A stretch of 40,493 nt of DNA from a virus, in IMG/VR virus record IMGVR_UViG_3300022074_000114, positions 1 to 40,493 of that record. One strand, given 5' to 3'. The notes below the pieces were generated by a model. That model saw nothing but the letters and a program-made list of their open reading frames with translations, was not told the DNA's origin and made no database searches. The translations under genes were made by a program, and so were the position numbers. Below are positions 1 through 26,034 of the stretch, piece by piece (position 1 is the stretch's first letter; each line of letters begins with the position of its first letter).

Positions 1-1
1 A

Positions 2-9
2 TATTTATA
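2..9 (+). promoter_or_regulatory. Candidate late promoter core TATTTATA
   Basis: The octamer TATTTATA is followed by TGAAAAG and lies 24 bases before the first ATG. The same octamer with an A-rich downstream flank recurs in front of many structural genes in this window. The T4 late core is TATAAATA, its reverse complement, so assignment as a late promoter is inference from recurrence and position. Confidence 0.45.
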
Positions 10-33
10 TGAAAAGGACTATGTATTAAAACA

Positions 34-888
34 ATGAAAAATTTAAAACATTCAAAATATAAAAATACAGCAATACTTTTTGAAATACTAGTTAGAAAAT
101 TAACTTCTGAATCATTGACATCCGATAAATCAGTAACTATTAATATTATCAAAAAATATTTTGGTAAAAATACTGAACTATCAAAAGAATTACAATTATA
201 TAATTCTTTAATTAAAGAATCAATTAATTCAGAAGCAAAAGCATTAGAATTTGTACGAACATGTAAAACTGTTCATACACAATTAAATAAATCTGTATTG
301 AAAAGACAACGATATAATTTAGTAAAAGAAATTTCAGAAAATTTTAATTTTAATAAAATATCAAAAATTAGAATAAATAATTATAAAACATTGGCATCTG
401 TATATAAAATATTTGAATATAATGAAGCAGATAATCCAAAACAATTATTTGAGTGTAAAAATGAAATTGTAAATCATATGTTACCTAAAGAAGTTAACGA
501 AAAGCCTAGCGTTGATAAATTAATGGAAATGTATAAAACACAATCTACTGATACTAGACTATTAGCATATAAATTAATGATTGACAAATTTAATAAAAAA
601 TATTCTGGTTTAAATGAAAATCAAAAAAATTTATTGAACAAATATATTACACACGTTAATGATACAGAAAGATTGAAAGAATATTTTGGTAAAGTTATTC
701 CATTAATTAAAAAACAATTAAAAGAGCAGGTAACAAAAACAACAGATAAAGCTACTCAAATTAAAGTTGATAATTTATCAAAAATGTTGTGTAACATTGA
801 AACTATTAAATTAGTAAAAGAATCTCATATTTTATCATTATTAAGATATTATGATTTATTAGATGAACTAGCAAGGGTAAATAAATGA
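34..888 (+). CDS. Unknown protein at the head of the prohead gene cluster
   Basis: A 284-residue, Lys- and Asn-rich, probably all-helical protein with no signal peptide or membrane segment. I do not recognise a domain. It is the first gene after a candidate late promoter, and its stop overlaps the next start (ATGA at 885-888), so it is translationally coupled to the acidic core-like protein and then the prohead protease. That position, where T4-like phages carry portal and core genes, suggests a head-assembly or virion role, but this is inference from neighbours only. The start codon has no close Shine-Dalgarno sequence; the nearest purine run, AAAAGGA, lies about 15 bases upstream. Confidence 0.8.
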   Translation: MKNLKHSKYKNTAILFEILVRKLTSESLTSDKSVTINIIKKYFGKNTELSKELQLYNSLIKESINSEAKALEFVRTCKTVHTQLNKSVLKRQRYNLVKEISENFNFNKISKIRINNYKTLASVYKIFEYNEADNPKQLFECKNEIVNHMLPKEVNEKPSVDKLMEMYKTQSTDTRLLAYKLMIDKFNKKYSGLNENQKNLLNKYITHVNDTERLKEYFGKVIPLIKKQLKEQVTKTTDKATQIKVDNLSKMLCNIETIKLVKESHILSLLRYYDLLDELARVNK

Positions 889-1613
889 AATCATTTTTAA
901 AAGAAATAGAATCCAAGTTTAAAGAAATACAAGAGCAAGATCAGGATGGAGATAAAGATCAAGATTTTGCAGATGTTCAAATTTCAAGAATGGTAGCATC
1001 AGGAATGTCTAAAGAAGATGCAATAAAAAAAGTAAAAGGTAAAAAATACAATGAAGATGCTAAACCTGACTTTTTAGATTTAGACGGAGATGGTGATAAA
1101 AAAGAGCCAATGAAACAAGCAGCTGCCCAAGCTAATGAAGTTATTAAAACTTCCAATCCAGATGATGCTGTAGAAATGCAAAAAAACAATCTAGAAATGG
1201 ATATTGAATTAACAGAAGATGAATTAGCTGAAATGAGTACAACTGCAGGTGTTCCTGGATATCAAACACCATATGCATTTTCAACAAAGGCTCAAGCTAA
1301 AAAGAAAAAGAAAATGAAATATGAATCAGTTCAACAAGCAATGGATCAAAAATATTCAGCAATGATTGAATCATATTCTAAGTTTTCAACCGGAAATCCA
1401 AAATCTACTCCTTCTCAAACAGTTAATGGTACTATAAAAGAAGTAGCAAAAAAATTACAAGAAATTGAACAATTGGTTAGATATACATCTAGATTAAAAA
1501 ATGAATCTGGAATTGCTGGATCAACTTATGGTAAATCTACTCATAACGCATTACATAAAATATCTGAAAGATTATTAAAAATATCTGAACGAGTTAGAAG
1601 TTTAGGAGAATAA
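885..1613 (+). CDS. Acidic prohead core-like protein with Asp-rich Ca-binding-type loops
   Basis: The 242-residue protein has an acidic N-terminal half and a basic, helical C-terminal half. Two Asp-rich segments are visible: DQDGDKDQDF at about residues 19-28 and DLDGDGDKKE at about 65-74. Both have the spacing of EF-hand or dockerin-type calcium loops. A poly-Lys patch (KKKKK) lies near residue 140. The gene sits directly before the prohead protease, where T4 has the small core proteins gp67 and gp68, so a prohead core or scaffold-accessory role is inferred; no direct T4 homology could be confirmed. Translation is coupled to the upstream gene by an ATGA overlap, with AGGG about 8 bases before the start. 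Confidence 0.75.
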   Translation: MKSFLKEIESKFKEIQEQDQDGDKDQDFADVQISRMVASGMSKEDAIKKVKGKKYNEDAKPDFLDLDGDGDKKEPMKQAAAQANEVIKTSNPDDAVEMQKNNLEMDIELTEDELAEMSTTAGVPGYQTPYAFSTKAQAKKKKKMKYESVQQAMDQKYSAMIESYSKFSTGNPKSTPSQTVNGTIKEVAKKLQEIEQLVRYTSRLKNESGIAGSTYGKSTHNALHKISERLLKISERVRSLGE

Positions 1614-1614
1614 T

Positions 1615-2241
1615 ATGAATAAAGCGTTGTTGGTAGAATATATGCCATTTAAGCCATTAGGGCCAGTTAATGAACAAATGGCTAAAAAATTCGGAGTTCC
1701 TGGAGGCTTAGTTGTACAAGGTGTATTACAACGAGCAGGAGCTAAAAATCAAAATGGTCGTGTATATCCAAAAAATATATTAGATCGTGAAGCTAAAAAA
1801 TATCAAAAAGATTATATAGATCAAAACAGAGCATTAGGCGAACTTGATCATCCAGAATCATCTGTTGTTAATTTAAATAATGTTTCACATAATGTTTTAA
1901 AAATGTGGTGGGATGGAGATGATTTATGCGGAGCTGTACAAGTATTGGATACTCCAGCTGGTAAAATATTGAAATCATTATTTGGTGCAGGTATTACATT
2001 AGGTATATCTAGTAGAGGTTTAGGAAGTGTAAAAGAATTATATAAAGAATCAGCAGTAGAAGTTCAAGAAGACTTTGAATTAATATGTTTTGATTTTGTA
2101 TCTAATCCGTCAACCCATGGAGCGTTTTTAAAACCAACTCATATGAATGAATCTGTTAATAAAACAAAGATTAACAAATATAATAAAGTAAATAAAATTA
2201 TAACATCGATATTATGCGATGATGGAAAGTGTAGGATATAA
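1615..2241 (+). CDS. gp21: Prohead maturation protease (T4 gp21-like, peptidase family S77)
   Basis: A 208-residue serine protease expected to assemble inside the prohead, cleave scaffold, core and capsid proteins, and degrade itself. The family signatures are clear. NGRVYP occurs near residue 47, GELDHPESS near 75-83 supplies the presumed catalytic His79, and GISSRG at 130-135 supplies the nucleophilic Ser (132 or 133). Its length is close to T4 gp21 (about 212 residues). AGGAG lies 6 bases before the ATG, which comes two bases after the previous TAA. The position upstream of scaffold and capsid genes matches T4 order, although a two-gene unit with its own promoter intervenes here. The C-terminal tail after about residue 180 is Lys/Asn-rich and likely dispensable. 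Confidence 0.95.
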   Translation: MNKALLVEYMPFKPLGPVNEQMAKKFGVPGGLVVQGVLQRAGAKNQNGRVYPKNILDREAKKYQKDYIDQNRALGELDHPESSVVNLNNVSHNVLKMWWDGDDLCGAVQVLDTPAGKILKSLFGAGITLGISSRGLGSVKELYKESAVEVQEDFELICFDFVSNPSTHGAFLKPTHMNESVNKTKINKYNKVNKIITSILCDDGKCRI

Positions 2242-2242
2242 C

Positions 2243-2608
2243 ATGAATATTAAAGCTTTGATGGAAGCACTTGAACGTGAACCAGTACAAATAACAAAAG
2301 AAGACAAAAAAGCATTTCTTGAATCAGTTAAATCATTTTCGCAATTAGGTGAAGGAGTATACGGAAGAACTAATTTACAAGAATTATGTGAAAAAGTAAA
2401 GTATATGGTAGAAATGGCAAATCAAGTAACATTGTCTGAAGGAGATTGGTTTGATGGAATTACTGTTAATCGTAATATGAAAGAAATTGCAAATTCATAT
2501 AAAGTATTTGAAAAAACAGCACAAGAAATGTCTCAATTACAAGAAAGGCTTTCTGCGGCATATGAAGATATCGGCCAAGGCTTGGGTAGATATTTTGAAA
2601 TAAATTAA
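2243..2608 (+). CDS. Small unknown protein, last gene of the prohead unit
   Basis: A 121-residue, mostly helical, acidic protein that I cannot assign. The ATG at 2243 is preferred over the in-frame ATG at 2219. It follows TAGGAT at a normal spacing and starts one base after the protease stop, whereas the upstream ATG would lie inside the protease gene. The C-terminal half looks like a short coiled coil with repeated Gln, Glu and Leu. It is the last gene before a sigma70-like element that begins at the base after its stop codon. A virion or assembly role is inferred only from operon position. Confidence 0.75.
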   Translation: MNIKALMEALEREPVQITKEDKKAFLESVKSFSQLGEGVYGRTNLQELCEKVKYMVEMANQVTLSEGDWFDGITVNRNMKEIANSYKVFEKTAQEMSQLQERLSAAYEDIGQGLGRYFEIN

Positions 2609-2640
2609 TTGGATAATTGAAATAAAATTATTATAATAAA
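2609..2640 (+). promoter_or_regulatory. Sigma70-like promoter element, copy 1
   Basis: TTGGAT at 2609-2614, a 17-base spacer, then a perfect TATAAT at 2632-2637. The 32-base block begins at the base after the preceding stop codon and matches a second block at 37663-37694 in 27 of 32 positions. Both precede non-structural gene units. The predicted start of transcription is only a few bases before the ATG at 2649, so the leader would be very short or the true start lies elsewhere. The function is inference. Confidence 0.5.
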
Positions 2641-2648
2641 GGAAATAG

Positions 2649-3047
2649 ATGTCAAATTTTGATAACATGTATCATGATTTTTTTGGTATGAAGCTAAAAT
2701 TAAACGAAGCTGATTTATTAAATAAATTAACTGATTATAAAGGAGGATTTTTATATAAATTAATAGATCCAGCAACATCAGGTAATGTAAAAGCAGATAT
2801 TCAAGCTTTTTTAAATAAAAAACAAATGCATGTTATAAAAACAAAATTTGATGATGCTAATGGTAAAGGTTTTTTTTATGTTAGATTAGGAGAAGATCCT
2901 GCAAAAGAATCACAAAGAATACAAGGCTTTATAAGTCAATTACCAGAAGTTGAAAAATTTTCATTTACATTAAAACCAATACAAAAACAAGTTACACCAG
3001 ATGAGCAAGAAGCACAAGCAACACCAAAGTATAATCCCAGGGCATAG
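2649..3047 (+). CDS. Unknown protein, first gene of the bS21 unit
   Basis: A 132-residue protein with no recognised domain. It reads as a small alpha/beta protein and ends in a polar tail. A good Shine-Dalgarno sequence, AAAGGAAAT, precedes the ATG. It follows the sigma70-like element and overlaps the start of the bS21 homolog by 47 bases, so the two are probably co-expressed and coupled. Because this pair has its own promoter and terminator within the head genes, an early or regulatory role is possible; nothing in the sequence proves it. Confidence 0.75.
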   Translation: MSNFDNMYHDFFGMKLKLNEADLLNKLTDYKGGFLYKLIDPATSGNVKADIQAFLNKKQMHVIKTKFDDANGKGFFYVRLGEDPAKESQRIQGFISQLPEVEKFSFTLKPIQKQVTPDEQEAQATPKYNPRA

Positions 3048-3240
3048 CGTAGGAGCAAAAGTAGTTAATAAAGATATTAATTTTGCTTTAAGGACTTGGA
3101 AAAGAAAAATTAAATCTTCAAATATTTTAAATACTCTTAAAGATAAAAAAGAATTTATAAAGCCTAGTTTTATAAATCGGCAAAAATTAATATCAGCTTG
3201 TTACAAGCAACGATTAAGATCATTAGAAGAAAAAAATTAA
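3001..3240 (+). CDS. rpsU: Phage-encoded homolog of small-subunit ribosomal protein bS21
   Basis: A 79-residue, strongly basic protein. From about residue 26 it follows the bS21 pattern: INFALRTWKRKIKSSNIL matches the bacterial FDVALRRFKRSCEKAGVL block, then a charged stretch, EFIKPS (bacterial FYEKPT), and a basic helix ending in LRSLEE. Bacterial bS21 is about 70 residues and sits on the 30S platform near the anti-Shine-Dalgarno sequence, assisting initiation. bS21 homologs are reported from several aquatic phages, including a Pelagibacter myophage. The ATG at 3001 lies inside the upstream gene without a clear ribosome site, implying coupled translation; no better start was seen. A strong terminator follows directly. 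The likely role is exchange into host ribosomes to favour phage mRNAs, which is inference. Confidence 0.85.
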   Translation: MSKKHKQHQSIIPGHSVGAKVVNKDINFALRTWKRKIKSSNILNTLKDKKEFIKPSFINRQKLISACYKQRLRSLEEKN

Positions 3241-3246
3241 TATATG

Positions 3247-3276
3247 GGCCTAACAATAAAAAGTTAGGCCTTTTTT
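3247..3276 (+). terminator. Rho-independent terminator after the bS21 unit
   Basis: Perfect 8-bp stem: GGCCTAAC (3247-3254), an 8-base A-rich loop, GTTAGGCC (3263-3270), then TTTTTT. It separates the bS21 unit from the scaffold and capsid unit. The tract is followed by ACTG, as at the other two terminators in the window. Confidence 0.92.
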
Positions 3277-3298
3277 ACTGATTTTTTGTACTGCTCTA

Positions 3299-3306
3299 TA
3301 TTTATT
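3299..3306 (+). promoter_or_regulatory. Candidate late promoter of the scaffold-capsid unit
   Basis: TATTTATT preceded five bases upstream by TACTG (3289-3293) and followed by GTAAATA. It differs from the common octamer in the last base. The next ATG is 99 bases away, giving a leader much longer than at the other candidate promoters. Confidence 0.45.
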
Positions 3307-3312
3307 GTAAAT

Positions 3313-3363
3313 ACGTTATTAATCTATATAACGTCATAAAACAAAATTAATCTTATTAAGATT
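3313..3363 (+). promoter_or_regulatory. Structured 5' leader of scaffold-capsid mRNA (two hairpins)
   Basis: Hairpin 1 pairs ACGTTAT (3313-3319) with ATAACGT (3328-3334) across an 8-base loop. It would begin close to the transcription start predicted from the octamer. Hairpin 2 pairs AATCTT (3349-3354) with AAGATT (3358-3363). Such 5'-terminal stems can protect mRNA ends from decay; that role here is inference. Confidence 0.4.
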
Positions 3364-3405
3364 CTCAATAATCTTATTTCCAAAACAAATTTAAGGAGAA
3401 CAATT

Positions 3406-4482
3406 ATGGCAAAATCTGATTTGCTAAAAGAAGCAATTGCGGATGCTAAAGCTGTTAAAGAAACTGCATTAGCCAACGCTAAAATTGCATTAGAAGAAGC
3501 GTTTGCTCCTAGAATTCAAAATATTCTTACAACAAAATTATCAGAAGATTTAATGGACGAAGAAGAATTACCGGAAGAAGAAGGAATGGAAATGGACATG
3601 GAAGTTCCAGCACCTGCTCCAGAAATGGAAATGGACATGGAAGCCCCTGCTCCTGAAGCACCAGCACCAGCACCTGCTCCAGAAATGGAAATGGACATGG
3701 AAGCACCTGCTCCTGCACCTGAAGTTCCAGTAGAAGCTCCAATTGAAGATGGAATGATGTATGCTCAGGACGAAAATCCTGCAGACGAAACTCCAGCTCC
3801 AACTGATATGACAGAAGAAGATTTAGAATTAGAAGCAATTATACGTGAACTTGAAGAAGATCTAAATGAAGAAGATCTTTATGAAGAAGAATTAACTGAA
3901 GATGAAACAATCGATGAAATGCATTGTGGCAAAGGTGGAGAACACGAAGAGCCTAGCGATGATAAAAAAGATGAAAAAGATATTGAAGAATCTTTTAATA
4001 TCGATGAAATTATCGAAGAAATTCTTTCTGAAGATGAAGTTAATAAAGAAGAAGTAGTAGCAGAAGGCGAACATGAAGAAGAAGAAAAAGAATCCAAAGA
4101 AAAAATGGATGAATTATCTGAAGAACTTACAGAAGCTTATGATACTATTGAATCTTTAAGAGGCACAATCAACGAAGTTAATCTTTTAAATGCAAAACTT
4201 CTTTACACGAATAAATTATTCAGAAATTTTGAATTATCAGAAAATCAAAAAATGACAGTAATTGAAAATTTTGATAGAGCTGGTAATACAAGAGAAGTAA
4301 AATTAGTGTTTAGTACTTTAGCTGAAAGCTTTCAACTTCCTGTTAAGAAAAAAGCGATTGTAAAAGAATCTTTTGCATCGAAAGCAGCAGGAACAACAGC
4401 TCCAAGCGAACCAACTAAACAAATTATTAATGAAGGCAACGAATTAGCTAATAGATGGAAAAAATTAGCTGGGTTGCTTTAA
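3406..4482 (+). CDS. gp22: Prohead scaffold protein (T4 gp22-like)
   Basis: A 358-residue, very acidic scaffold expected to form the prohead core and be cleaved by gp21. The N-terminal 45 residues are an Ala/Lys/Leu helix. Residues about 50-125 are a Pro/Ala/Glu/Met-Asp low-complexity region with repeated EMEMDME and PAPAPE units. Residues about 140-235 are Glu-rich. The C-terminal third (NAKLLYTNKLFRNFELS near residues 264-280, then a helical tail ending in WKKLAGLL) is the part that resembles scaffolds of marine T4-like phages. The start has a strong AAGGAG site. It lies directly upstream of the capsid gene, as in T4, with an 18-base gap. Size is larger than T4 gp22 (269 residues), mostly because of the repeats. 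Confidence 0.88.
   Translation: MAKSDLLKEAIADAKAVKETALANAKIALEEAFAPRIQNILTTKLSEDLMDEEELPEEEGMEMDMEVPAPAPEMEMDMEAPAPEAPAPAPAPEMEMDMEAPAPAPEVPVEAPIEDGMMYAQDENPADETPAPTDMTEEDLELEAIIRELEEDLNEEDLYEEELTEDETIDEMHCGKGGEHEEPSDDKKDEKDIEESFNIDEIIEEILSEDEVNKEEVVAEGEHEEEEKESKEKMDELSEELTEAYDTIESLRGTINEVNLLNAKLLYTNKLFRNFELSENQKMTVIENFDRAGNTREVKLVFSTLAESFQLPVKKKAIVKESFASKAAGTTAPSEPTKQIINEGNELANRWKKLAGLL
3601..3720 (+). repeat. 60-bp tandem duplication inside the scaffold gene
   Basis: Two adjacent 60-base units (3601-3660 and 3661-3720) match at 52 of 60 positions, including an identical 38-base core (3607-3644 and 3667-3704). Each encodes a 20-residue acidic Pro/Ala and Glu-Met-Asp unit. A partial third copy of the EMEMDME coding part lies just upstream. 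The repeat keeps the reading frame. Confidence 0.85.
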
Positions 4483-4500
4483 AAAAAGGAAAATATAAAA

Positions 4501-6150
4501 ATGGAAATTTCATCTTTATTAGAAGACAATAACCCTTCCCAAAGATCTGCCGCTAAAGGTTTAGTGACAAAATGGGAAAGAACAGGACTTCTTGAAGGAT
4601 TAAATGGAGATACAGAAAAAGCTGGTATGTCTCAGCTTCTTGAGAATCAAGCTAGACAACTAGTAAAAGAATCTTCTACTAATGCTAACGCTAACTCATC
4701 TGAAGAGTGGGCTGGTGTTGCTTTACCGTTAGTAAGAAGAATTTTTGCTGAATTTGCAGCAAAAGAATTTGTTTCTGTACAACCAATGAATCTACCTTCA
4801 GGTCTTGTATTTTATCTAGATTTTAAATACGGTACTGCTCAACCAGGCTTTGACACAACTGGTGGTACATCAAATGAGTTTAAATTTGGTTCGCCAAATG
4901 CTAATAACTCTATGTTTGGTGTAACATCTGATGCTGCTGATGCATCTGGTGGTTTATATGGTGCTGGAAGATTTGGATATTCAATTAACGAAACATCATC
5001 AATCACAACTAATGCTACATTAGGTACAATTGCATCATCATCTGTAAATTATGATTCAACATTTACTGGTGCAACTGTTGGATTAGGTGATTTTGCAATA
5101 GTGCAAGTACCATTAACAAATCTATCTTCATCTGATTTAACTGCGGTTAGATCATTTACGATCGAAACTGGATCAGGTGCTTTAGTACAATATTCAGCAT
5201 TCACAAAAGTAGTTGGTACAAACTTAGAATTTGTAGTATCAGGATCTAACTCAGCAATTGCTGCAGCTGGAGAATATACTATTAAGTATAGCAAACAACC
5301 AACTGACACTACAAGAGGTGACTTTGAAGACTTGAATCCATTTAATGGTTCTGGTGCTGATAGTGGTATCGATAATGGTACTGATATTGATATTCCAGAA
5401 GTAAATCTTGAAATGCAATCAGATCCAATAGTAGCTAAGACTAGAAAGTTAAAGGCTGTTTGGACTCCTGAATTTGCACAAGATTTAAATGCATATCACT
5501 CAATTGACGCTGAAGCTGAATTAACTTCAATGTTAAGTGAATATGTATCAATGGAAATTGATCTTGAAATTTTAGACATGTTAATCAATGGTGCAGTAAC
5601 AACTGAATATTGGTCAGCAGTATCTAATCAATTTATAAACGCTGCTGGTACGGCTTTCGAAGGAAAAGGCGTAGCTGATGGTGGATATTATAATACACAA
5701 GGAGAGTGGTTCCAAACTTTAGGAACTAAACTTCAAAAAGTATCTAATAAGATTCATCAAAAAACCCTAAGGGGTGGCGCTAATTTCTTAGTAACATCAC
5801 CTGCTGTTGCAACTATCCTAGAATCAATTCCTGGATTTGCTGCCGACACAGATGGTACTAAAATGGAATTTGCTGCTGGTGTTCAAAAAATTGGTGCAAT
5901 CAATAATAGATACACAGTTTATAAGAATCCATACATGAAAGAGAACGTAATCCTTATGGGTTATAGAGGAGCTCAATTCCTTGAAACTGGTGCAGTTTAT
6001 GCTCCATATGTTCCATTAATCATGACTCCACTTGTATACGATCCTGTTAACTTCACCCCAAGAAAAGGTGTAATGACAAGATATGCTAAGAAAATGGTAA
6101 GACCAGAATTCTATGGTAAAGTATATGTTGCTGGATTAAATTCTATTTAA
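4501..6150 (+). CDS. gp23: Major capsid protein (T4 gp23-like, HK97 fold)
   Basis: A 549-residue capsid protein. The N-terminal pro-region includes LLE at residues 46-48, which fits the T4 protease rule (Leu/Ile-X-Glu) and is a plausible maturation site. It is followed by the conserved capsid start EEWAGVALPLVRRIFAEF at about 68-85. Residues about 140-275 are a Ser/Thr/Gly-rich beta segment that looks like the inserted domain of the gp23 family. The C-terminal half keeps family motifs such as TRKLKAVWTPE, QDLNAYHSIDAE, YVSMEIDLEIL and the closing FTPRKGVMTRYAKKMVRPEF. AGGAAAA precedes the start. It follows the scaffold gene and is closed by a terminator, which suits very high expression. Confidence 0.96.
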   Translation: MEISSLLEDNNPSQRSAAKGLVTKWERTGLLEGLNGDTEKAGMSQLLENQARQLVKESSTNANANSSEEWAGVALPLVRRIFAEFAAKEFVSVQPMNLPSGLVFYLDFKYGTAQPGFDTTGGTSNEFKFGSPNANNSMFGVTSDAADASGGLYGAGRFGYSINETSSITTNATLGTIASSSVNYDSTFTGATVGLGDFAIVQVPLTNLSSSDLTAVRSFTIETGSGALVQYSAFTKVVGTNLEFVVSGSNSAIAAAGEYTIKYSKQPTDTTRGDFEDLNPFNGSGADSGIDNGTDIDIPEVNLEMQSDPIVAKTRKLKAVWTPEFAQDLNAYHSIDAEAELTSMLSEYVSMEIDLEILDMLINGAVTTEYWSAVSNQFINAAGTAFEGKGVADGGYYNTQGEWFQTLGTKLQKVSNKIHQKTLRGGANFLVTSPAVATILESIPGFAADTDGTKMEFAAGVQKIGAINNRYTVYKNPYMKENVILMGYRGAQFLETGAVYAPYVPLIMTPLVYDPVNFTPRKGVMTRYAKKMVRPEFYGKVYVAGLNSI

Positions 6151-6192
6151 TAGTTTTATAACTAATTAAATATTATTTTAAACTAATACCGG

Positions 6193-6220
6193 AAGGGATG
6201 ATTTATTTCATCCCTTTCTT
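6193..6220 (+). terminator. Rho-independent terminator after the capsid gene
   Basis: Perfect 9-bp stem AAGGGATGA (6193-6201) with TCATCCCTT (6208-6216), a 6-base loop, then TCTT, a weaker U-tract than the other two terminators. It is followed by ACTG and a candidate late promoter ten bases downstream. Confidence 0.85.
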
Positions 6221-6230
6221 ACTGTTTTGA

Positions 6231-6238
6231 TATTTATA
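6231..6238 (+). promoter_or_regulatory. Candidate late promoter TATTTATA + TAAAAAG
   Basis: The octamer lies 6 bases after TACTG (6220-6224) and 23 bases before the next ATG. The 15-base string TATTTATATAAAAAG is identical at 23887 and 29170. Confidence 0.5.
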
Positions 6239-6261
6239 TAAAAAGAAACTAAGTAAGTATT

Positions 6262-6537
6262 ATGGCAGTCCCTAGAACAAAATATTCAATGCAAGTTCGT
6301 ATCCGTTATAAAGGAAATCTAGTTGATGTCTTAGATAGGATTAGAGCAATACGTATGGTACTAATGGTTCATATAGAACAAGATTTAGGAAAAGGAGCAG
6401 AATTAATAACAATTAAAGTTATGACTCCATATCCTCCTAGAAAAACATTTCATGGTATTAGAAAAATTTCTGTAGGAAAAATAGAATCATTGGAACAAAT
6501 GCAATTATTAGAAACTACCCTAACAAAACTTCAGTAA
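6262..6537 (+). CDS. Small unknown protein between capsid and neck genes
   Basis: A 91-residue basic protein, predicted as alternating beta strands and helices (VRIRYKGNL then a helix with DVLDRIRAIRMVLMV, then ITIKVMTPYPP). The order is compatible with a small ferredoxin-like fold, but no family is recognised. It has its own candidate promoter directly after the capsid terminator and is followed by another octamer, so it may be transcribed as a short unit or read through to gp13. No strong Shine-Dalgarno site is visible. A head-associated role is guessed from position only. Confidence 0.72.
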   Translation: MAVPRTKYSMQVRIRYKGNLVDVLDRIRAIRMVLMVHIEQDLGKGAELITIKVMTPYPPRKTFHGIRKISVGKIESLEQMQLLETTLTKLQ

Positions 6538-6545
6538 TATTTATT
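6538..6545 (+). promoter_or_regulatory. Candidate late promoter TATTTATT before gp13
   Basis: TATTTATTATAAAGG overlaps the end of the preceding gene region and lies 16 bases before the gp13 start. The last base of the octamer deviates, and the A-rich flank merges with the AAAGG ribosome site, so it could be chance in an A+T-rich gap. Confidence 0.35.
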
Positions 6546-6561
6546 ATAAAGGTAATTACAG

Positions 6562-7785
6562 ATGGCAGATTATAGTGAAAATAAACCAATTTGGCCCGGA
6601 AGCTCATCATTTACAGCTGGTGATACTCCATTTGGATTTTTTGATAACGATACAATGTTTCAAAGTCAAGCAGATAGCTTTGCATCTTTTGCAGCACAAA
6701 ATGTTGGATATCCAATAATGGACGTTGAATTAATAGATAAAAATTTTTATACTGCCTTTGAGTCTGCAGTTATTGAATATTCTAATCAAGTTAATCAAGT
6801 TAACATAACAAATAATTTATTAAGTACATTAGGAATACAAACAGGATCTGATTTTCTTGTTAGTGAAAGTTTTTCAGATACTTTAGTAGGAGGATCATTA
6901 GCATATATTACTAAATTATCAAAAACATATGGTGCAGAAGCCGGATCTGGAGGAAATGAAAAATGGCATACAGTAAAAGTATCAGCTGTTCCAGGACAAC
7001 AAAGTTACAATATTAAAACAGCAATATCTGAATCTGGACTACCATTATCTGCAACTAGTTCTATTGAAATAAAACAAGTATTACATCATGTACCACCAGC
7101 AATAATAAGATATTTTGATCCTTTTGTTGGAACAGGATTAGGTTCTCAAAATTTATTAGATGCATTTGATTTTGGTGGATTTTCACCATCTGTTAACTTT
7201 ATGATGATGCCATTACATCAAGACTTATTAAGAATACAAACAATTGAATTTAATGATCGAATTAGAAAATCACATTGGTCATTTGAAATACATGGAGATG
7301 ATATAAAAATTTATCCAATTCCATCTAGATCTGGATCAATAGCAGATTTACATTTTGATAATTTTTATGTAAAATATACATATGAAGACCAAAAAGCAGA
7401 CCAATCATTATTATTTGGTAATACGGCAGCAATGTCTGGAGTAGTTAGTGATGCATCAAATATTCCATATACATATCAAAAATTTAGTCAAATAAATGAT
7501 ATGGGAAGAGCATGGATAATTAAATATGGATTGGCTTTAGTTAAAGAAATGTTAGGATATGTACGTGGAAAATATTCAACAGTGCCAATTCCAAACTCAG
7601 AAGTTACACTAAACGGATCAGAATTAGTCACACAAGGCCAATCAGAAAAAGATGGATTAATAACACAACTTCGAGAATTTTTAGAAAAAATGACAAAAGA
7701 AAGTATGGTAACAAGACAACAAGCAGAAAATGATGCAATGAATGAAGTGTTGTCAAGAATACCAACTAAAATATATGTAGGATAA
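6562..7785 (+). CDS. gp13: Neck/head-completion protein (T4 gp13-like)
   Basis: A 407-residue protein expected to form the neck ring that closes the filled head and receives the tail. The N-terminal part has GYPIMDVELIDKNFYTAFES at about 49-68, the typical start of phage neck adaptor proteins. The C-terminal part (GRAWIIKYGLALVKEMLG at about 315-332, then VPIPNSEVTLNG) is the characteristic gp13 ending, with a closing helix. It is longer than T4 gp13 (309 residues), mainly in the middle. AAAGG precedes the ATG, and two bases separate it from gp14. The gp13-gp14-gp15 order supports the call. Confidence 0.85.
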   Translation: MADYSENKPIWPGSSSFTAGDTPFGFFDNDTMFQSQADSFASFAAQNVGYPIMDVELIDKNFYTAFESAVIEYSNQVNQVNITNNLLSTLGIQTGSDFLVSESFSDTLVGGSLAYITKLSKTYGAEAGSGGNEKWHTVKVSAVPGQQSYNIKTAISESGLPLSATSSIEIKQVLHHVPPAIIRYFDPFVGTGLGSQNLLDAFDFGGFSPSVNFMMMPLHQDLLRIQTIEFNDRIRKSHWSFEIHGDDIKIYPIPSRSGSIADLHFDNFYVKYTYEDQKADQSLLFGNTAAMSGVVSDASNIPYTYQKFSQINDMGRAWIIKYGLALVKEMLGYVRGKYSTVPIPNSEVTLNGSELVTQGQSEKDGLITQLREFLEKMTKESMVTRQQAENDAMNEVLSRIPTKIYVG

Positions 7786-7787
7786 AC

Positions 7788-8312
7788 ATGGCATTATTTG
7801 GAACACAAAGAGATGCAAAATTTTTAGCATCAATTAATGCAGAATTATTAAATGCAATAATTGATACTGAAATTGAATTTTTTAAATTAGTAGTTGAAGA
7901 ATCTAATTCTAATATATATGGTGAATCAACATCTAAAACATATTTTGATTCTATTTTAATTCCAGTACTAATTACAAAAGAGACAAAAAATGGAACAATG
8001 GATGATTATGGACATTCATATACAAGAACAGCTCAATTTGGTATCTCTAGAGATATTTTAGAAAAAGCATCATTTTATCCAGAAGTTGGGGATATTGTAA
8101 AATGGGATGAAGAATACTATGAATTAGATAATGTTGATGCAAATCAATATTTTGCAGGAAAAAATCCAGATACATGGCCTAATGGAACTTCATTTGGTTA
8201 TAGTGTTTCAGTATTATGTGACGCTCATGTAACAAGACAAACGCCAACAAATATTAGAAAAATGAGATTTGGATCTCCAGATAATGGACAAACATATAAA
8301 GGATTTGGTTAA
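7788..8312 (+). CDS. gp14: Neck protein (T4 gp14-like head-tail connector)
   Basis: A 174-residue protein. The central block FGISRDILEKASFYPEVG (84-101), continuing into DIVKWDEEYYELDNV (102-116), has the family pattern of an Arg-containing strand, then P-x-x-GD-I and a hydrophobic strand with Tyr/Glu. That pattern is typical of gp14 and related head-tail stopper proteins. It is shorter than T4 gp14 (256 residues). AGGATAA precedes the start, and the stop overlaps the next start (TAATG at 8310-8314). It would act with gp13 at the head-tail joint. Confidence 0.78.
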   Translation: MALFGTQRDAKFLASINAELLNAIIDTEIEFFKLVVEESNSNIYGESTSKTYFDSILIPVLITKETKNGTMDDYGHSYTRTAQFGISRDILEKASFYPEVGDIVKWDEEYYELDNVDANQYFAGKNPDTWPNGTSFGYSVSVLCDAHVTRQTPTNIRKMRFGSPDNGQTYKGFG

Positions 8313-9553
8313 TGTCAAGAATAAATAGACAAAATATTGATAGAAAAACAAATAAACCTTCTTTGTCATCAACTGAATCTACAAGAAAAGATTTAATATT
8401 AAATAGAGCACAAGAGATAAGAAGAGATAATGACATTGTTAAAACTCCTAAGCGAACTGTTTATGATATTGATTATGCAATTAAATGGTTTATTGAAAAT
8501 GAAATACAACCTCAAATAGAAGCAAATGGAGAATTAATTGATGTTCCTGTAATATTTTCAAATGGAGAAAAATGGGATAATGTTCGAAGATTAGGATATT
8601 TACGTGATCAAAAAGGAATGTTACAATCTCCAATTATAATGATTAAAAGAAATTCTATACAAGAAAGAGATCAATTAAAAAAACTAGATATCAATAGACC
8701 AGCTGCAGGAAATCAAATAGTATATAAAAATAAATTTAATAAACAAAATGCATATACAGAAGATTTATTTCCTATACCAGTAAATGAACCAATGACTTCA
8801 GAAGAATTATATGCAATAAATATTCCAGAATATGTTGATATAGAATATGACTTGTTAGTATGGACAGATTTTACTACTCAAATGAATGAATTAGTTGAAC
8901 AAATTATGCCATATGGAACATTTGCATGGGGCAATAATTTTAATAAATATAGAACTTTCATCCGGTCTTTAAGTTTTGAAACAATTAATACTGTTGGCGA
9001 AGATAGATTAGTTAGATGTACAATGCCACTAACTGTTAATGGAACATTAATGGCAGAGCAAGAATATAGAAAATCAACTATACAAAAAAGATATTCATTA
9101 AAAAAAGTATCTTGGGCACAAGTTATTGATACAGATATTAATATATTTAATAGTACTACAATTCCACAAAAAATATTAAACGTGCAACAGCAAGTATTAT
9201 CAGGAGGCTCAATAGTATTATCAGGAGCATCAGGTGGTGGCGGCGGAACTACAATTAATGCATCATCAATGAATTATATTATAACATTAACAGATAAATC
9301 AGCTGATTTTTCAAATTTAACTACAGTTACTGTTTCTGCTTTAGCAGCAATAAATCCAACAACTAATGCAACTGCTACAAAAAATGAATTTGATATATAC
9401 ATTAATGGACAATATATAGATAAAGAATTATATACATGGACACCAAGTGATATTAATTCTCCACAATCAATTGTATTTGATACAACTGAATTGGGATATA
9501 ACATAGAATCTACAGATACAATAATTATAAATGGAAGATGGAAAACTAGTTAA
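8312..9553 (+). CDS. gp15: Tail terminator/completion protein (T4 gp15-like) with an extra C-terminal domain
   Basis: A 413-residue protein. Residues about 50-265 follow gp15: VPVIFSNGEKWDNV at 78-91, then EYVDIEYDLLVWTDFTTQMN at 173-192 and LVEQIMPY at 194-201. T4 gp15 (272 residues) caps the tail tube and sheath and docks to the neck. A Gly-rich linker (308-312) then leads to an extra domain of about 95 residues with FDIYINGQYIDKELYTWT. That domain resembles the C-terminus of the next gene, which has IEIFINGLRMRYDVDF. The fusion to a fibre-type domain is unusual. The gene overlaps its neighbours at both ends by single-base stop/start junctions, indicating coupled translation. Confidence 0.8.
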   Translation: MSRINRQNIDRKTNKPSLSSTESTRKDLILNRAQEIRRDNDIVKTPKRTVYDIDYAIKWFIENEIQPQIEANGELIDVPVIFSNGEKWDNVRRLGYLRDQKGMLQSPIIMIKRNSIQERDQLKKLDINRPAAGNQIVYKNKFNKQNAYTEDLFPIPVNEPMTSEELYAINIPEYVDIEYDLLVWTDFTTQMNELVEQIMPYGTFAWGNNFNKYRTFIRSLSFETINTVGEDRLVRCTMPLTVNGTLMAEQEYRKSTIQKRYSLKKVSWAQVIDTDINIFNSTTIPQKILNVQQQVLSGGSIVLSGASGGGGGTTINASSMNYIITLTDKSADFSNLTTVTVSALAAINPTTNATATKNEFDIYINGQYIDKELYTWTPSDINSPQSIVFDTTELGYNIESTDTIIINGRWKTS

Positions 9554-21726: not shown

Positions 21727-22437
21727 ATGGCTGGCGTTAAAACAGGCATATCAGGACAAATAAATAATAATATTGTCACGGATGGATTAGTATTTTATAT
21801 AGATCCTGCTTATAAATCATCGTATACAGGTACTGGTACTACATTAACAGATTTAGAAGGATCAAATAATTTAACATTAATAAATGGTCCTACATTTAAT
21901 TCTAGCGGTAATGGAAGTATTAATTTTGATGGTCCTTCAGATTATGCTGAAACAGAATCAAATATAGGAATTTCTAGTAATGATTCAAGAACTTTTGAAG
22001 GCTGGTATTATATCGACGACACTACAAATAAAAATATTGCTGGATATGGTGCTTCTGGAGGTGCAATTTTATATGATACAATGATATTTAATAATGGTGG
22101 ATATGTTAATGCTATAGGACATTATTATGGAGGAGGAAATGATACTATTAGTACTCTTCCTAGTAGAAATACTATTAATGTAAATCAATGGAATCAAATT
22201 GTACATTTATATGATGGATCCGATGTTTCAATATATACTAATGGAGAATTTAGTAATTCTAAAACTTTAAGTCTGAATACAACAAATAGTAAATTAAGAA
22301 TAGCAGCCGGCCATTATGCCGGAGCATATAATTATTTTCTTGGTAAAGGAAGTACATTTAAAATATATAACCGTGCTTTATCAGCAGGAGAAGTTCTTCA
22401 AAACTATCAAGCACAAAAAGAAAGATTTGGATTATAA
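21727..22437 (+). CDS. LamG/concanavalin A-like lectin-fold protein 1 of 6
   Basis: A 236-residue protein. It begins with NNIVTDGLVFYIDPAY (14-29) and ends with YNRALSAGEVLQNYQAQK plus ERFGL. Both are hallmarks of the Laminin_G_3 / concanavalin A-like jelly-roll domain found in phage tails and bacterial surface proteins. The central WNQIVHLYDGSDVSIYTNG is the usual strand pair. There is no signal peptide. It opens a run of six adjacent genes of similar size and fold. Binding to host-surface glycans as a tail protein is inferred. Its stop overlaps the next start (TAATG). Confidence 0.85.
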   Translation: MAGVKTGISGQINNNIVTDGLVFYIDPAYKSSYTGTGTTLTDLEGSNNLTLINGPTFNSSGNGSINFDGPSDYAETESNIGISSNDSRTFEGWYYIDDTTNKNIAGYGASGGAILYDTMIFNNGGYVNAIGHYYGGGNDTISTLPSRNTINVNQWNQIVHLYDGSDVSIYTNGEFSNSKTLSLNTTNSKLRIAAGHYAGAYNYFLGKGSTFKIYNRALSAGEVLQNYQAQKERFGL

Positions 22438-23150
22438 TGGGTATACGTAGAGGTGAAATAACAACTAAAATTGTTTCTGACGGATTGGTATTCAATATGG
22501 ATGCTGCAAATAGAGCAAGTACTATACCAAGTACTGCTACAACAAAAACATTTAATACAGTAAATTTATCTCAATCTGGAAGTTTTATAAATGATACTAT
22601 ATATGATTCTAGTACTGTTACACCAAGTTATGCTTTAGATGGAAATGGAGATAGAATTCAATTAATACCAAATGATTTAGATTTTAGCAGTTTTACTAAT
22701 GGGTTTACTATGTCTACTTGGGTAAAACTAGCAAATAATACACAGACAGGTACTTACATTTATAGTAGAAGAAATTCTTCTAATAGTGATAATATATTTT
22801 CTATAATATATGGATATGTCTCCCAAAAATACGAAATATATAATGGTGCAGGAGGTGTTTTACGAGCCAATTCCCAAATTACTGTTAGTGATACTAATTG
22901 GCATAACATATGCTACAGTATAGGAACATCAGCAAAAGGATATTTAGATGCTTCCTTAACAACTAATGTAAGTTATGGATCTATGGTTGTATTAGGTTCT
23001 AGCACAGGAGATAATATTATAGGAGATTTTGGTAATGGAGTACATGATGTATATGGTAATATAGGACCAGTACATGTATACAACCGTGTATTATCAGCAG
23101 AAGAAGTGTTATACAATTATAATGGATTACGAGGGAGGTTTGGAGTATGA
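22437..23150 (+). CDS. LamG/concanavalin A-like lectin-fold protein 2 of 6
   Basis: A 237-residue paralog of its neighbours. The start motif IVSDGLVFNMDAANRAS, the middle strand STWVKLANNTQTGTYIYSRR and the ending YNRVLSAEEVLYNYNGLRGR identify a Laminin_G_3-type domain. The N-terminal region is closest to the next protein in the run (shared GLVFNMDAANRAS), pointing to a relatively recent duplication of this pair. The start overlaps the preceding stop by one base, and its TGA overlaps the next ATG, so translation through the array is coupled. Confidence 0.85.
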   Translation: MGIRRGEITTKIVSDGLVFNMDAANRASTIPSTATTKTFNTVNLSQSGSFINDTIYDSSTVTPSYALDGNGDRIQLIPNDLDFSSFTNGFTMSTWVKLANNTQTGTYIYSRRNSSNSDNIFSIIYGYVSQKYEIYNGAGGVLRANSQITVSDTNWHNICYSIGTSAKGYLDASLTTNVSYGSMVVLGSSTGDNIIGDFGNGVHDVYGNIGPVHVYNRVLSAEEVLYNYNGLRGRFGV

Positions 23151-23884
23151 GAGTAGGTAGCATAACAACAGATATTATAGCGGATGGGCTAGTATTCAAC
23201 ATGGATGCTGCTAATAGAGCTAGCTATGTAGAATTCAATACAACATCTTATAGTACTATTAATACAACAAATACAGGAAGTGTAGAAAATGATGCTGCTG
23301 TAGATTCTTTAGGTAATCCTAAAGCATGGGATTTTGACGGAATTGATTCAGCTGTTAGATGTTCTAATGTAGGAGATGAAATTGGAAAACCTTCAGAATA
23401 TACTTTTGAAGTATGGTTAAAACCAACTGATAGGGGAACAAATGCATATCAAATTTTCGGACAAAATTATGCAGCTTTTATACATAATACTTATAATCCT
23501 CCCCAATTCTCTTGGAGTACTTATCAAACCGGCGGAGGCGGCTCATATCAAGGTACACCTTTAGTATCATTAGACATAGTTGATAAGTGGACACATATGG
23601 TAGCTACATACCAAACTGCTTCAATGGGATTTGTTGATGGAACTAGTTATTCAGGAAACGTTTATTATAGAACCGCAGACGGAACAGTAGATGTGCATAG
23701 CACTGCAAATATGAATGGTACTATAGGAAGCTTTTACTATAAGGATTTTGGGTTTGGAAACGCTCAATCAGGGGTTTCAACGTTCGTAGGACAAATAGCA
23801 TGTGGAAGAGTATATAATAGAGCTTTAACCAAATCAGAAGTCCTACACAACTACAACGCATTAAAAGGTAGATTTGGCCTATAA
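23147..23884 (+). CDS. LamG/concanavalin A-like lectin-fold protein 3 of 6
   Basis: A 245-residue member of the array with DGLVFNMDAANRASY near the start, FEVWLKPTDRG and WTHMVATYQTASMGFVDG in the core, and VYNRALTKSEVLHNYNALKG plus RFGL at the end. ATGA overlap with the previous gene. It is the last of the first group of three, because a 25-base gap holding a candidate late promoter follows. The core loops differ strongly from genes 1 and 2 while the two ends are conserved, as expected if the ends hold the fold or attach to the virion and the loops bind varying ligands; that reading is inference. Confidence 0.85.
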   Translation: MRVGSITTDIIADGLVFNMDAANRASYVEFNTTSYSTINTTNTGSVENDAAVDSLGNPKAWDFDGIDSAVRCSNVGDEIGKPSEYTFEVWLKPTDRGTNAYQIFGQNYAAFIHNTYNPPQFSWSTYQTGGGGSYQGTPLVSLDIVDKWTHMVATYQTASMGFVDGTSYSGNVYYRTADGTVDVHSTANMNGTIGSFYYKDFGFGNAQSGVSTFVGQIACGRVYNRALTKSEVLHNYNALKGRFGL

Positions 23885-23886
23885 CA

Positions 23887-23894
23887 TATTTATA
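23887..23894 (+). promoter_or_regulatory. Candidate late promoter inside the lectin array
   Basis: TATTTATATAAAAAG, identical over 15 bases to copies at 6231 and 29170, lies 15 bases before the ATG of lectin gene 4. It is the only clear promoter-like site between 18921 and 26034. Confidence 0.5.
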
Positions 23895-23909
23895 TAAAAA
23901 GAACAGATT

Positions 23910-24611
23910 ATGGCATTTCATCATTCACCGAGAATAGTATCAGACGGATTAGTATTTGTCTTGGATGCAGCAAATATTAAAATGTATCCTGGGTCTGGAA
24001 CTACAGTAACAGATACTATTAGTGATACTTCTGGTACATTTACTGGTGCTGGATTTTATGATACTTCAACATTTGCAACTCCAGTATTTTCTTTTGATGG
24101 AAGTAATGATTATCTAACATATACTGATAGTACTATTCCAACACTAGGATCAGCGTTAACATGCGGGTTATGGATCAAATCATCTGATTCGCAAGCTGAA
24201 TTATTTTGTACATTTGAAACAGCTAATCCATTCAAAGGATTTTTATTTGGTATTGGATTTTCTGGAAATAATGGGAAATTAGATCTATACTGTTCACCAA
24301 CAGATGGATCCGGTGGAACAGCAGCTGCTGATACAGGTGTAGCTGTCAATGATAATACAATAAAATATGTTGTAGTTACTTATGATGGATCTAATGCAAG
24401 ATTTTATCATGATGGAGTATTATCATCAACAGTAAGTTTTACAAAAACAGCAGGCGCTTCAACTCAACCATTTAGAATAGGAGCTTCAAATAATTCCCCT
24501 GCTAATAGAATTTATTCAGGATTGATGGGTCCAGGACATATATACAATAGAACATTGACAGATGCAGAAGTACTTCAAAACTACAACGCAATGAAAGCGA
24601 GGTTCGAGTAA
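23910..24611 (+). CDS. LamG/concanavalin A-like lectin-fold protein 4 of 6
   Basis: A 233-residue member with PRIVSDGLVFVLDAANIKMY at the start, FSFDGSNDYLTY, CGLWIKSSDSQ and VVTYDGSNARFYHDG in the core, and YNRTLTDAEVLQNYNAMKAR at the end. This is the most typical Laminin_G_3 sequence of the six. It has its own candidate promoter 15 bases upstream and overlaps the next start by TAATG, so genes 4-6 may form a separately expressed group. Confidence 0.86.
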   Translation: MAFHHSPRIVSDGLVFVLDAANIKMYPGSGTTVTDTISDTSGTFTGAGFYDTSTFATPVFSFDGSNDYLTYTDSTIPTLGSALTCGLWIKSSDSQAELFCTFETANPFKGFLFGIGFSGNNGKLDLYCSPTDGSGGTAAADTGVAVNDNTIKYVVVTYDGSNARFYHDGVLSSTVSFTKTAGASTQPFRIGASNNSPANRIYSGLMGPGHIYNRTLTDAEVLQNYNAMKARFE

Positions 24612-25303
24612 TGGCAACGAATTATGGAACAGTTATACCATTAAATGGAGTAGCATCTTATTTTGATTCTAAAAAAGGAATATCAGATGCATTAGGAATT
24701 GCAGATCCATTAATAGCAAGAAATTCTGCATTTATTGATTCTGGATCATATCAAACATATTATGATGTTGGTGTGAGTAACAGATATTATCATACCAATA
24801 GTACGCCAGATACGTTGAAGGGAAATTCTAATTTTACAGTTTGTGGAGTATTTCGTCGAACTGCAGGATTCACAAGCAAAGGATGTTGGGGGATAGGAGC
24901 TGATGTAAGTGGACAAGGTATTTGTTCTTGGAATAGTACTGCTAATGGAAAAATTACAATAGACTTATGGGGTACAGCGACTTTCTCTACTGATCAAGTA
25001 TATCCTGAAGATGAATGGTGTTTTGCAGCATGGACAAAAGCAGCTGGCGTTTTTAGTAGAGCAAATATTGCTATGTGGAAAAATACTGTAAAATATACTG
25101 GATCTGATTTAGTAATACTGCGTGGAGGCGAATCTTCAGCAGTTAACATAAACGATAATGGATTAACCATAGCATCTATCAATGACTCAACTACATATGT
25201 ATGTCCAATAGAAATAGGATTCATAATATTTTATGACAGAGTGTTAACTGATACAGAAATTCTTAAGATGCATACTTTTGCACAAGGAAGGGGATACTTA
25301 TAA
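24611..25303 (+). CDS. Divergent LamG-like protein 5 of 6
   Basis: A 230-residue protein whose ending IIFYDRVLTDTEILKMHTFA keeps the (Y/F)-(N/D)-R-x-L-(T/S)-x-x-E-(V/I)-L signature of the array. The N-terminal motif is replaced by GVASYFDSKKGISDALGI. Core segments such as FTVCGVFRRTAGFTSKGCWG and WCFAAWTKAAG still fit a concanavalin-like sandwich. It contains several Cys residues, unlike its neighbours. Start and stop overlap the flanking genes (TAATG at both ends). It is probably a diverged member or one acquired from another phage lineage. Confidence 0.78.
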   Translation: MATNYGTVIPLNGVASYFDSKKGISDALGIADPLIARNSAFIDSGSYQTYYDVGVSNRYYHTNSTPDTLKGNSNFTVCGVFRRTAGFTSKGCWGIGADVSGQGICSWNSTANGKITIDLWGTATFSTDQVYPEDEWCFAAWTKAAGVFSRANIAMWKNTVKYTGSDLVILRGGESSAVNINDNGLTIASINDSTTYVCPIEIGFIIFYDRVLTDTEILKMHTFAQGRGYL

Positions 25304-26034
25304 TGGCAGTAATAGGCGGACGTAAACCACCACATCAAGAAGATATGATACTATACATCGATGGAGCATCGCCATCCACTGTTAGCTCAAACGGAACTCA
25401 ATTTAGTAGTATGGTTAAAAATGGAGTAGTAAATCGAGATGTATTAACCAATGACAATGCTCCAACATATGTAGAAGCAGGATTAGGTAGTTACATGGCA
25501 TTTGATGGTGTTGATGATGCTCTTCGTTGGAATAATACTGGATTTTCGAGTACCTATGAAATAACAGTTGCAATGTGGATGAAACCAAGATCTCATTCTG
25601 GAGGAACATATTGGAGAGGATTTTTTAGTGCTAGATCAACAGACGGAGGAAATGATCATAATACTGGTGTTTCCATGGATATGAGGAATGTAGCTAGAAG
25701 TTCATTTGATACTTTCAATATTGAAACTGGCGGAGGTTCAGGTAACACAGATCAAATGACTTCAAATATTGCATGGAACACATGGACTCACGTAGTTGGA
25801 GTTGTTTCAACAAGTCAAACCATTCCTTACATAAACGGTTCTGCAGAGAATACAAAAAGTAAAACTCAAGCTTACATTAATCTAGATTATTTGGTTTTTG
25901 GAGCAAGAACATACGGAGGCAATACAGGATATGCTCATGTTGATATAGCATCATGGAGTGTATTTAATAGAGTATTAACGCCTGCAGAAATATCAGACTT
26001 ATATACTCAAAATAAATGGCGGTATGGTTTGTAA
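25303..26034 (+). CDS. LamG/concanavalin A-like protein 6 of 6
   Basis: A 243-residue protein with EDMILYIDGASPS near the start, YMAFDGVDDALRW and ITVAMWMKPRSHSGGTYWRG in the core, WTHVVGVVSTSQTIPYING, and FNRVLTPAEISDLYTQNK at the end. All are standard Laminin_G_3 features. It closes the run of six. The gap after it contains a candidate late promoter, so the downstream small genes and tail genes are separately controlled. A ligand is not predictable. Confidence 0.83.
   Translation: MAVIGGRKPPHQEDMILYIDGASPSTVSSNGTQFSSMVKNGVVNRDVLTNDNAPTYVEAGLGSYMAFDGVDDALRWNNTGFSSTYEITVAMWMKPRSHSGGTYWRGFFSARSTDGGNDHNTGVSMDMRNVARSSFDTFNIETGGGSGNTDQMTSNIAWNTWTHVVGVVSTSQTIPYINGSAENTKSKTQAYINLDYLVFGARTYGGNTGYAHVDIASWSVFNRVLTPAEISDLYTQNKWRYGL

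Follow-up and report, generated by a model that had tools for sequence, protein, structure and literature searches.

The window, by which we mean the whole stretch of 40,493 bases analysed here, is an uncultivated virus record that contains a T4-like head and tail module. Its head genes follow one another as a 284-aa ORF, a 242-aa ORF, the protease, a 129-aa ORF, a 132-aa ORF, the gene for ribosomal protein bS21 (rpsU), a terminator, a putative scaffold gene and the capsid gene. The features needed below are listed here, with Shine-Dalgarno (SD) strength scored as the pairing of the 20 nt before a start with the 16S tail (kcal/mol):

1615-2241, + strand, prohead protease (Peptidase_S77; PF03420, E 3e-33), SD AGGAG at about 1604-1608, -7.8
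2649-3047, + strand, 132-aa ORF sharing 47 nt with bS21 (family search, nothing above cut-off)
2981-3000, + strand, SD-less leader of the bS21 gene, 16S-tail pairing 0.0 kcal/mol
3001-3240, + strand, bS21, 79 aa, ATG start (PF01165, TIGR00030; 7jil is the best solved relative)
3001-3060, + strand, N-terminal tail of bS21, outside the family profiles and conserved in relatives
3246-3271, + strand, strong intrinsic terminator directly 3' of bS21
3406-4482, + strand, putative scaffold gene, so called from its position before the capsid gene (family search, nothing above cut-off), SD AAGGAG at 3393-3398, -8.2
4501-6150, + strand, major capsid protein gp23 (PF07068, E 8e-77), SD AAGGA at about 4486-4490, -6.2

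Elsewhere in the window, 21727-26034 holds a tandem row of six ORFs, each of 230-245 codons, that look alike by eye: IVSDGLVF is an example of their shared openings and RFGL of their shared endings. Most of these ORFs overlap the next start, and several starts carry very strong SDs, to -13.4.

Judged by its sequence, ORF 3001-3240 does encode a true bS21, as the preliminary description had proposed. Residues 23-71 match PF01165 of Pfam significantly (E 6e-9, 35.9 bits vs a cut-off of 27), the NCBIfam equivalog TIGR00030 is matched at 29.7 bits (cut-off 28.95), and the best solved relatives are bS21 of F. johnsoniae (7jil, E 8e-5) and, next, 9i5v. A profile built from 28 phage homologues likewise found F. 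johnsoniae bS21 as its best match (7jil_z, E 3.8e-14, 55.7 bits), with 9i5v at 53.1 bits and every other chain at or below 40.9 bits. Profiles were needed for the phage bS21 search because the sequence is too diverged for tblastn, which gave no match between window bS21 and phages. The predicted structure, the best of five models (pLDDT 91, pTM 0.55; the remaining four at pLDDT 77-81), has helices at residues 3-10, 26-40, 42-50 and 55-78, and a Foldseek search of this model against the PDB returned no match.

The alignment with bacterial bS21 had been described as nearly full-length; it holds from residue 22-24 onwards and fails for the ~20 N-terminal residues, and since the family match begins only there, these first residues constitute a tail outside the profiles. 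The tail is conserved among the 28 relatives, with K3, K6 and G14 invariant and H8, I11 and P13 present in at least 90%. At the other end of the protein, the C-terminal helix retains a Tyr that aligns with Tyr54 of F. johnsoniae, a position at which 47 of the 76 bS21 representatives scored (72 of them with a callable start) have an aromatic residue. Loss of Tyr54 in the phage was considered as a switch of ribosome behaviour and is ruled out, the residue being kept. As far as profile scores go, the likeness of the phage protein to Bacteroidia is confined to this helix, the 16S-binding part: window bS21 scores 39.8 bits with a Bacteroidia profile vs 27.2 with an Arg54-type profile, and 5.2 vs 5.7 bits once the C-terminal part is removed.

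bS21 sits between protease and capsid on the same strand in 142/142 complete cassettes that carry it (redundant loci included). A terminator follows it in 45 of 86 bS21-carrying (bS21+) representatives, while none follows the protease within 90 nt (0/85), the background being 8 of 480 random stretches. Since terminators follow bS21 and none the protease, bS21 appears to close the transcript of the head genes upstream of it, and a structured leader to start the scaffold-capsid mRNA. The gene had been thought to form a unit of its own, set between a sigma70-like promoter and a terminator and expressed early. The terminator stands, and the separate unit is not supported, in view of the 0/85 terminators after the protease. 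A promoter-like TGGATA-16-TATAAT is indeed present at 2610-2637, yet a scan of positions 1-9000 found 41 promoter-like sites vs 53.9 in shuffles, and a promoter of its own for bS21 was rejected, such sites being no commoner than in shuffles. Early expression also loses ground, given the invariant same-strand site between protease and capsid and the late expression described for related phages in the available text of Chen et al. 2022 (PMC9723584).

The tail of the terminator (window 3266-3275) often continues into TTTTACTG in relatives. Downstream of it, within 3272-3405 on the + strand, the leader of the scaffold-capsid mRNA contains one hairpin at 3313-3334, a second at 3357-3376 and a UUCC/GGAG helix formed between 3378-3381 and 3395-3398, which covers the scaffold SD and is invariant in 21 sequences. 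Compensatory changes among these 21 relatives fall in the two hairpins only, with 0/500 shuffles reaching the covariation score, and an Rfam search gave no match in the window. Control of capsid translation is a possible role for it.

The 132-aa ORF upstream had been suggested to share the function of bS21, a proposal that fares poorly: among 105 loci, the ORF has a homologue in 0/22 loci without bS21 (bS21-) and is missing from 24/83 bS21+ loci, and nothing ties it to translation. L002 and L003, which are near relatives, retain the 47-nt overlap; in more distant relatives it is shorter or gives way to a gap. Similarity of its start to a T4-like targeting start gave p 0.007-0.05 in two relatives and 0.12-0.67 in the window (24 comparisons), and a protease-site-like motif occurs in 36/55 homologues vs a background of 37%; as signs that the ORF encodes an internal protein of the head, targeted in the manner of T4, these values are weak. 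Starts of this ORF are often miscalled in relatives and its SD counts were left out.

Relatives were collected in seven scans of viral contigs. One used window bS21 and yielded two loci; the other six used the capsid or the protease as query, each of these six giving the best 80 of 429 to at least 600 candidates, and therefore all proportions describe the sampled relatives. The 361 loci include 232 with a complete protease-to-capsid stretch, 142 of those with bS21. Representatives were collapsed at 90% capsid identity and scored by the cassette mean over protease, scaffold and capsid, with a threshold of -4.5. Starts were set through alignment or as the 5'-most ATG, which leaves a few bS21 starts ambiguous (in L049, the pairing is -7.4 or +1.9 depending on the ATG), and RM378 (L561), for which no start was callable, has no score and is omitted from the 160 representatives. 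Classification was consistent with a PF01165 search of 30 whole records, which agreed in 30/30 (a match in 0/15 classed as bS21- and 15/15 classed as bS21+); the bS21- records included the complete Flavobacterium phage immuto and three of 162-183 kb.

In this sample of an uncultivated T4-like lineage, the presence of bS21 tracks SD use. Cassettes at or below -4.5 were found in 82/86 bS21+ representatives (mean -6.9) vs 1/73 bS21- representatives (mean -1.2), the latter including Flavobacterium phage immuto. These 159 comprise a first set, in which the counts were 73/76 vs 1/70 (rank test p 9e-25), together with the last scan and LR756508; before clustering, 166/178 bS21+ vs 6/99 bS21- loci passed the threshold. 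At <=-5, each gene of the first set behaves in the same manner, with SDs on the capsid gene in 72/76 vs 2/70, on the scaffold gene in 74/76 vs 17/70 and on the protease gene in 65/73 vs 15/64. The internal-ATG background is equal in both groups (-3.22 in bS21+, -3.28 in bS21-) and G+C is similar. Such a pattern might arise if SD strength simply followed, whatever the host, the output needed from each gene, much for capsid and scaffold and little for rpsU, terminase and portal. Terminase (0/7) and portal (13% of 30) are indeed SD-poor in bS21+ phages, and rpsU is therefore not the sole SD-less head gene; this tuning of expression nevertheless leaves the same capsid genes of bS21- relatives, almost all SD-less, out of account, and we find it scarcely credible.

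Genome-wide, SDs occur in four bS21+ phages on 50-65% of virion-gene relatives vs 28-33% of other genes (p 0.002-0.047), and in three bS21- phages on 0-21% and 9-14%, respectively. Microcystis phage Mel-JY01 resembles the bS21+ phages, with 56% of virion-related vs 34% of other genes (p 0.09). In T4, whose host uses SDs, the same gene calling puts SDs before 76% of the 34 genes of a single 20-kb stretch rich in non-structural genes.

Much of the raw p value of the tie reflects one deep split of the tree. Mapped on the capsid tree, presence or absence of bS21 requires 6 to 7 changes, of which at least 5 fall on supported branches. Averaged over the 5 supported independent pairs, SD use moves with bS21 in 3.2-3.6 and against it in 0.1-0.2; with only 5 pairs, a sign test cannot reach 0.05. 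Three bS21- rows nested inside the bS21+ part (L255, L305, L258) also lack SDs. The exceptions are four bS21+ representatives without SDs (L557, L308, L350, L347) and one bS21- representative with them (L081). Together with L270, L280 and L282, the last belongs to a bS21- clade within the bS21+ part that shows intermediate SD values (-3.3 to -5.4) and is possibly in transition. A phage of another kind, LR756502 (L558, 642 kb), carries a host-like, Tyr-type bS21 with no capsid gene detected nearby; the genes around its bS21 are SD-poor, and bS21 alone therefore does not imply SD use.

Cells present a different picture. Among 30 further cell loci, the best-scoring from 99 genomes of the phylum, 6 are of the Tyr54 and 24 of the Arg54 type. 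In all 6 Tyr54 genomes, SDs are avoided on ordinary genes, with 0-12% of these at <=-5 in 20-kb samples, each below its own background, and in 12 Arg54 genomes, sampled likewise, SDs stand on 21 to 80% of genes, 9/12 being above background. Keeping in mind that 46/47 aromatic-54 phage representatives carry SD-bearing cassettes and that Tyr54 cells avoid SDs, Tyr54-type bS21+ phages show the opposite of the pattern of Tyr54 cells. This bears directly on the possibility that host range confounds the tie, in that bS21+ phages would infect SD-using bacteria and use bS21 as a late accessory of initiation, while their bS21- relatives would infect SD-blind Bacteroidia. One bS21- member is known to infect Flavobacterium, and Microcystis is the stated host of a bS21+ member; Arg54-type bS21+ phages have SDs, the corresponding cells being variable and mostly above background; and bS21 and SD use coincide mostly in the one deep split of the tree. 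On the other hand, a difference in hosts fits ill with SDs in nearly all aromatic-54 phages when Tyr54 cells avoid them, and with the preference of bS21+ phages for SDs on virion genes, T4 having 76% in its non-structural-rich stretch, and it leaves an SD-less rpsU beside SD-bearing neighbours unexplained. We regard host range as a serious contender, close behind our best reading.

As to the host of the window itself, a capsid match was found in 0/395 Bacteroidota genomes. Short DNA matches to the first 20 kb of the window occur in 98/395 of them (E <=0.01), the best being 56 nt at 84%, and no spacer-repeat array lies near the eight best. The Bacteroidota promoter motif was discarded as a host marker: it is not enriched upstream of genes even in a Flavobacterium phage, and is therefore uninformative on the host. 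A possible Bacteroidetes host is indicated only by the type of the bS21 sequence and by relatives.

The leader of rpsU sets this gene apart from its neighbours. Within loci, its pairing averages -0.26 vs -5.99 for the other cassette genes (n=83, redundant); beside SD-bearing neighbours, phage rpsU pairs more weakly than even the internal-ATG background. None of 47 aromatic-54 representatives has an rpsU SD at <=-5, vs 7/25 of the others, a difference that is not significant (rank test p 0.14). Pelagibacter phage Mosig (L559), unlike the window lineage, has an rpsU SD of -17.7 before a TTG start. In cells, the pairing is -18 to -23 in 80/80 loci closest to F. johnsoniae bS21, and among the further cell loci it is <=-12 in 4/6 of the Tyr54 type and strong also in many of the Arg54 type; window rpsU, at 0.0, is without the extended SD of the autoregulated Bacteroidota rpsU (threshold -13 kcal/mol). 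The phage protein might serve merely to keep ribosomes complete while late translation is heavy, an SD-less start evading the rpsU feedback and the choice of mRNA staying unchanged. The extreme SD of the host gene in 80/80 loci, its autoregulation according to the available text of PMC9976891, the SD-less phage gene and the Bacteroidia-like, 16S-binding C-terminal helix would all suit such a supply. We nonetheless consider it improbable, as it predicts neither the bS21-capsid SD tie nor the conserved N-terminal tail.

The reading that we prefer, tentatively and with less than even confidence, is that phage bS21, made late, enters the host 30S and favours SD-bearing virion mRNAs. Late in infection, unmodified SD-blind host ribosomes would make the first phage bS21, which would then take the place of the host protein on the platform of the 30S. 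Either its tail or a change in how it contacts the 3' end of 16S would let the anti-SD pair with SDs, and scaffold, capsid, protease and other late mRNAs would be favoured over SD-less host mRNAs. With the ribosomes altered in this way, the SD-less rpsU start would limit further synthesis of bS21, opposite to the manner in which host rpsU regulates itself. F. johnsoniae ribosomes whose bS21 is altered or absent gain in translation of an mRNA with a strong SD, that of rpsU (PMC9976891), and a phage bS21 in that site could free the anti-SD. The conserved tail is a candidate part of this mechanism because Chen et al., in the text available, place the N-terminal helix of bS21 over the anti-SD and mRNA (PMC9723584). 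Several observations speak against this preferred reading. Tyr54, which helps hide the anti-SD, is retained, the likeness to Bacteroidia lies in the C-terminal helix, phage SDs are ordinary (-6 to -9), and the F. johnsoniae mutants did not favour a weak-SD mRNA. Further, Arg54-type bS21+ phages, among them one whose stated host is Microcystis, have SDs as well, and in some of these rpsU is SD-less. An earlier proposal that phage bS21 re-specialises host ribosomes gains from the comparative tie with SD use; its early timing is not supported.

A switch in the full sense, from SD-blind Bacteroidia ribosomes to ribosomes that read SDs late, with SDs on virion genes and none on rpsU, is to our mind rather unlikely. 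If such a switch did operate, a single 79-residue phage protein would reassign the translation of a cell. The conserved place between protease and scaffold could alternatively mean that bS21 is built into the head, injected and active as infection begins, as is suggested in the available text of PMC9723584, with the conserved tail as a targeting signal. As for any likeness between the tail and the starts of T4 internal proteins, there is a single low value among 24 comparisons, and packaging in the virion seems to us very improbable.

Cumulatively, our findings suggest, and do not prove, that the virus retunes host ribosomes through bS21. Aquatic phages often carry bS21, and the tie with SD use makes the role of the protein testable. 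If phage bS21 does alter the choice of start sites by Bacteroidia ribosomes, a virus would here be producing a specialised ribosome, and SD-dependent expression in Bacteroidia might be a practical use of it.

The kind of gene and its location are known, and the tie between bS21 and SDs in phages appears to be new; in a literature search, no title or abstract opening was found that reports an SD link in bS21 phages. A phage bS21 beside head genes, with the aromatic residue and late expression with structural genes, has been published by Chen et al. 2022 (PMC9723584), and the window resembles those phages in having bS21 near terminase, portal, protease and capsid and an aromatic position 54; these authors also propose late expression and ribosome takeover. 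In the phages of Chen et al., however, bS21 lies on the opposite strand in genomes of 293-331 kb, whereas in the window it shares the strand of the structural genes and is placed between protease and scaffold, and the available text of that paper contains no SD analysis of phage genes and no description of the N-terminal tail.

The F. johnsoniae rpsU system, as set out in the accessible portion of PMC9976891, is similar in that bS21 controls access to the anti-SD and hence the choice of mRNA. Ribosomes with altered or absent bS21 there translate more of the strong-SD rpsU mRNA and did not favour a weak-SD mRNA; in that system a single host gene, one whose SD is extended, profits from the loss of bS21, whereas here an SD-less phage bS21 gene accompanies virion genes with ordinary SDs. 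Mel-JY01 (PP395634.1) has RpsU between protease and capsid on the same strand and a capsid 55% identical to that of the window, but position 54 of its RpsU is not aromatic, and an SD of -5.9 precedes its rpsU. Pelagibacter phage HTVC008M bS21, which we liken to window bS21 by description and not by sequence, can enter E. coli ribosomes (PMC6375957; the entry as cited in the available text of PMC9723584 and PMC9976891). Finally, the T4 RegB endoribonuclease, going by its annotation, is likewise a T4-type tool that acts on GGAG in mRNA, and differs from bS21 in being a nuclease that cleaves the mRNA.
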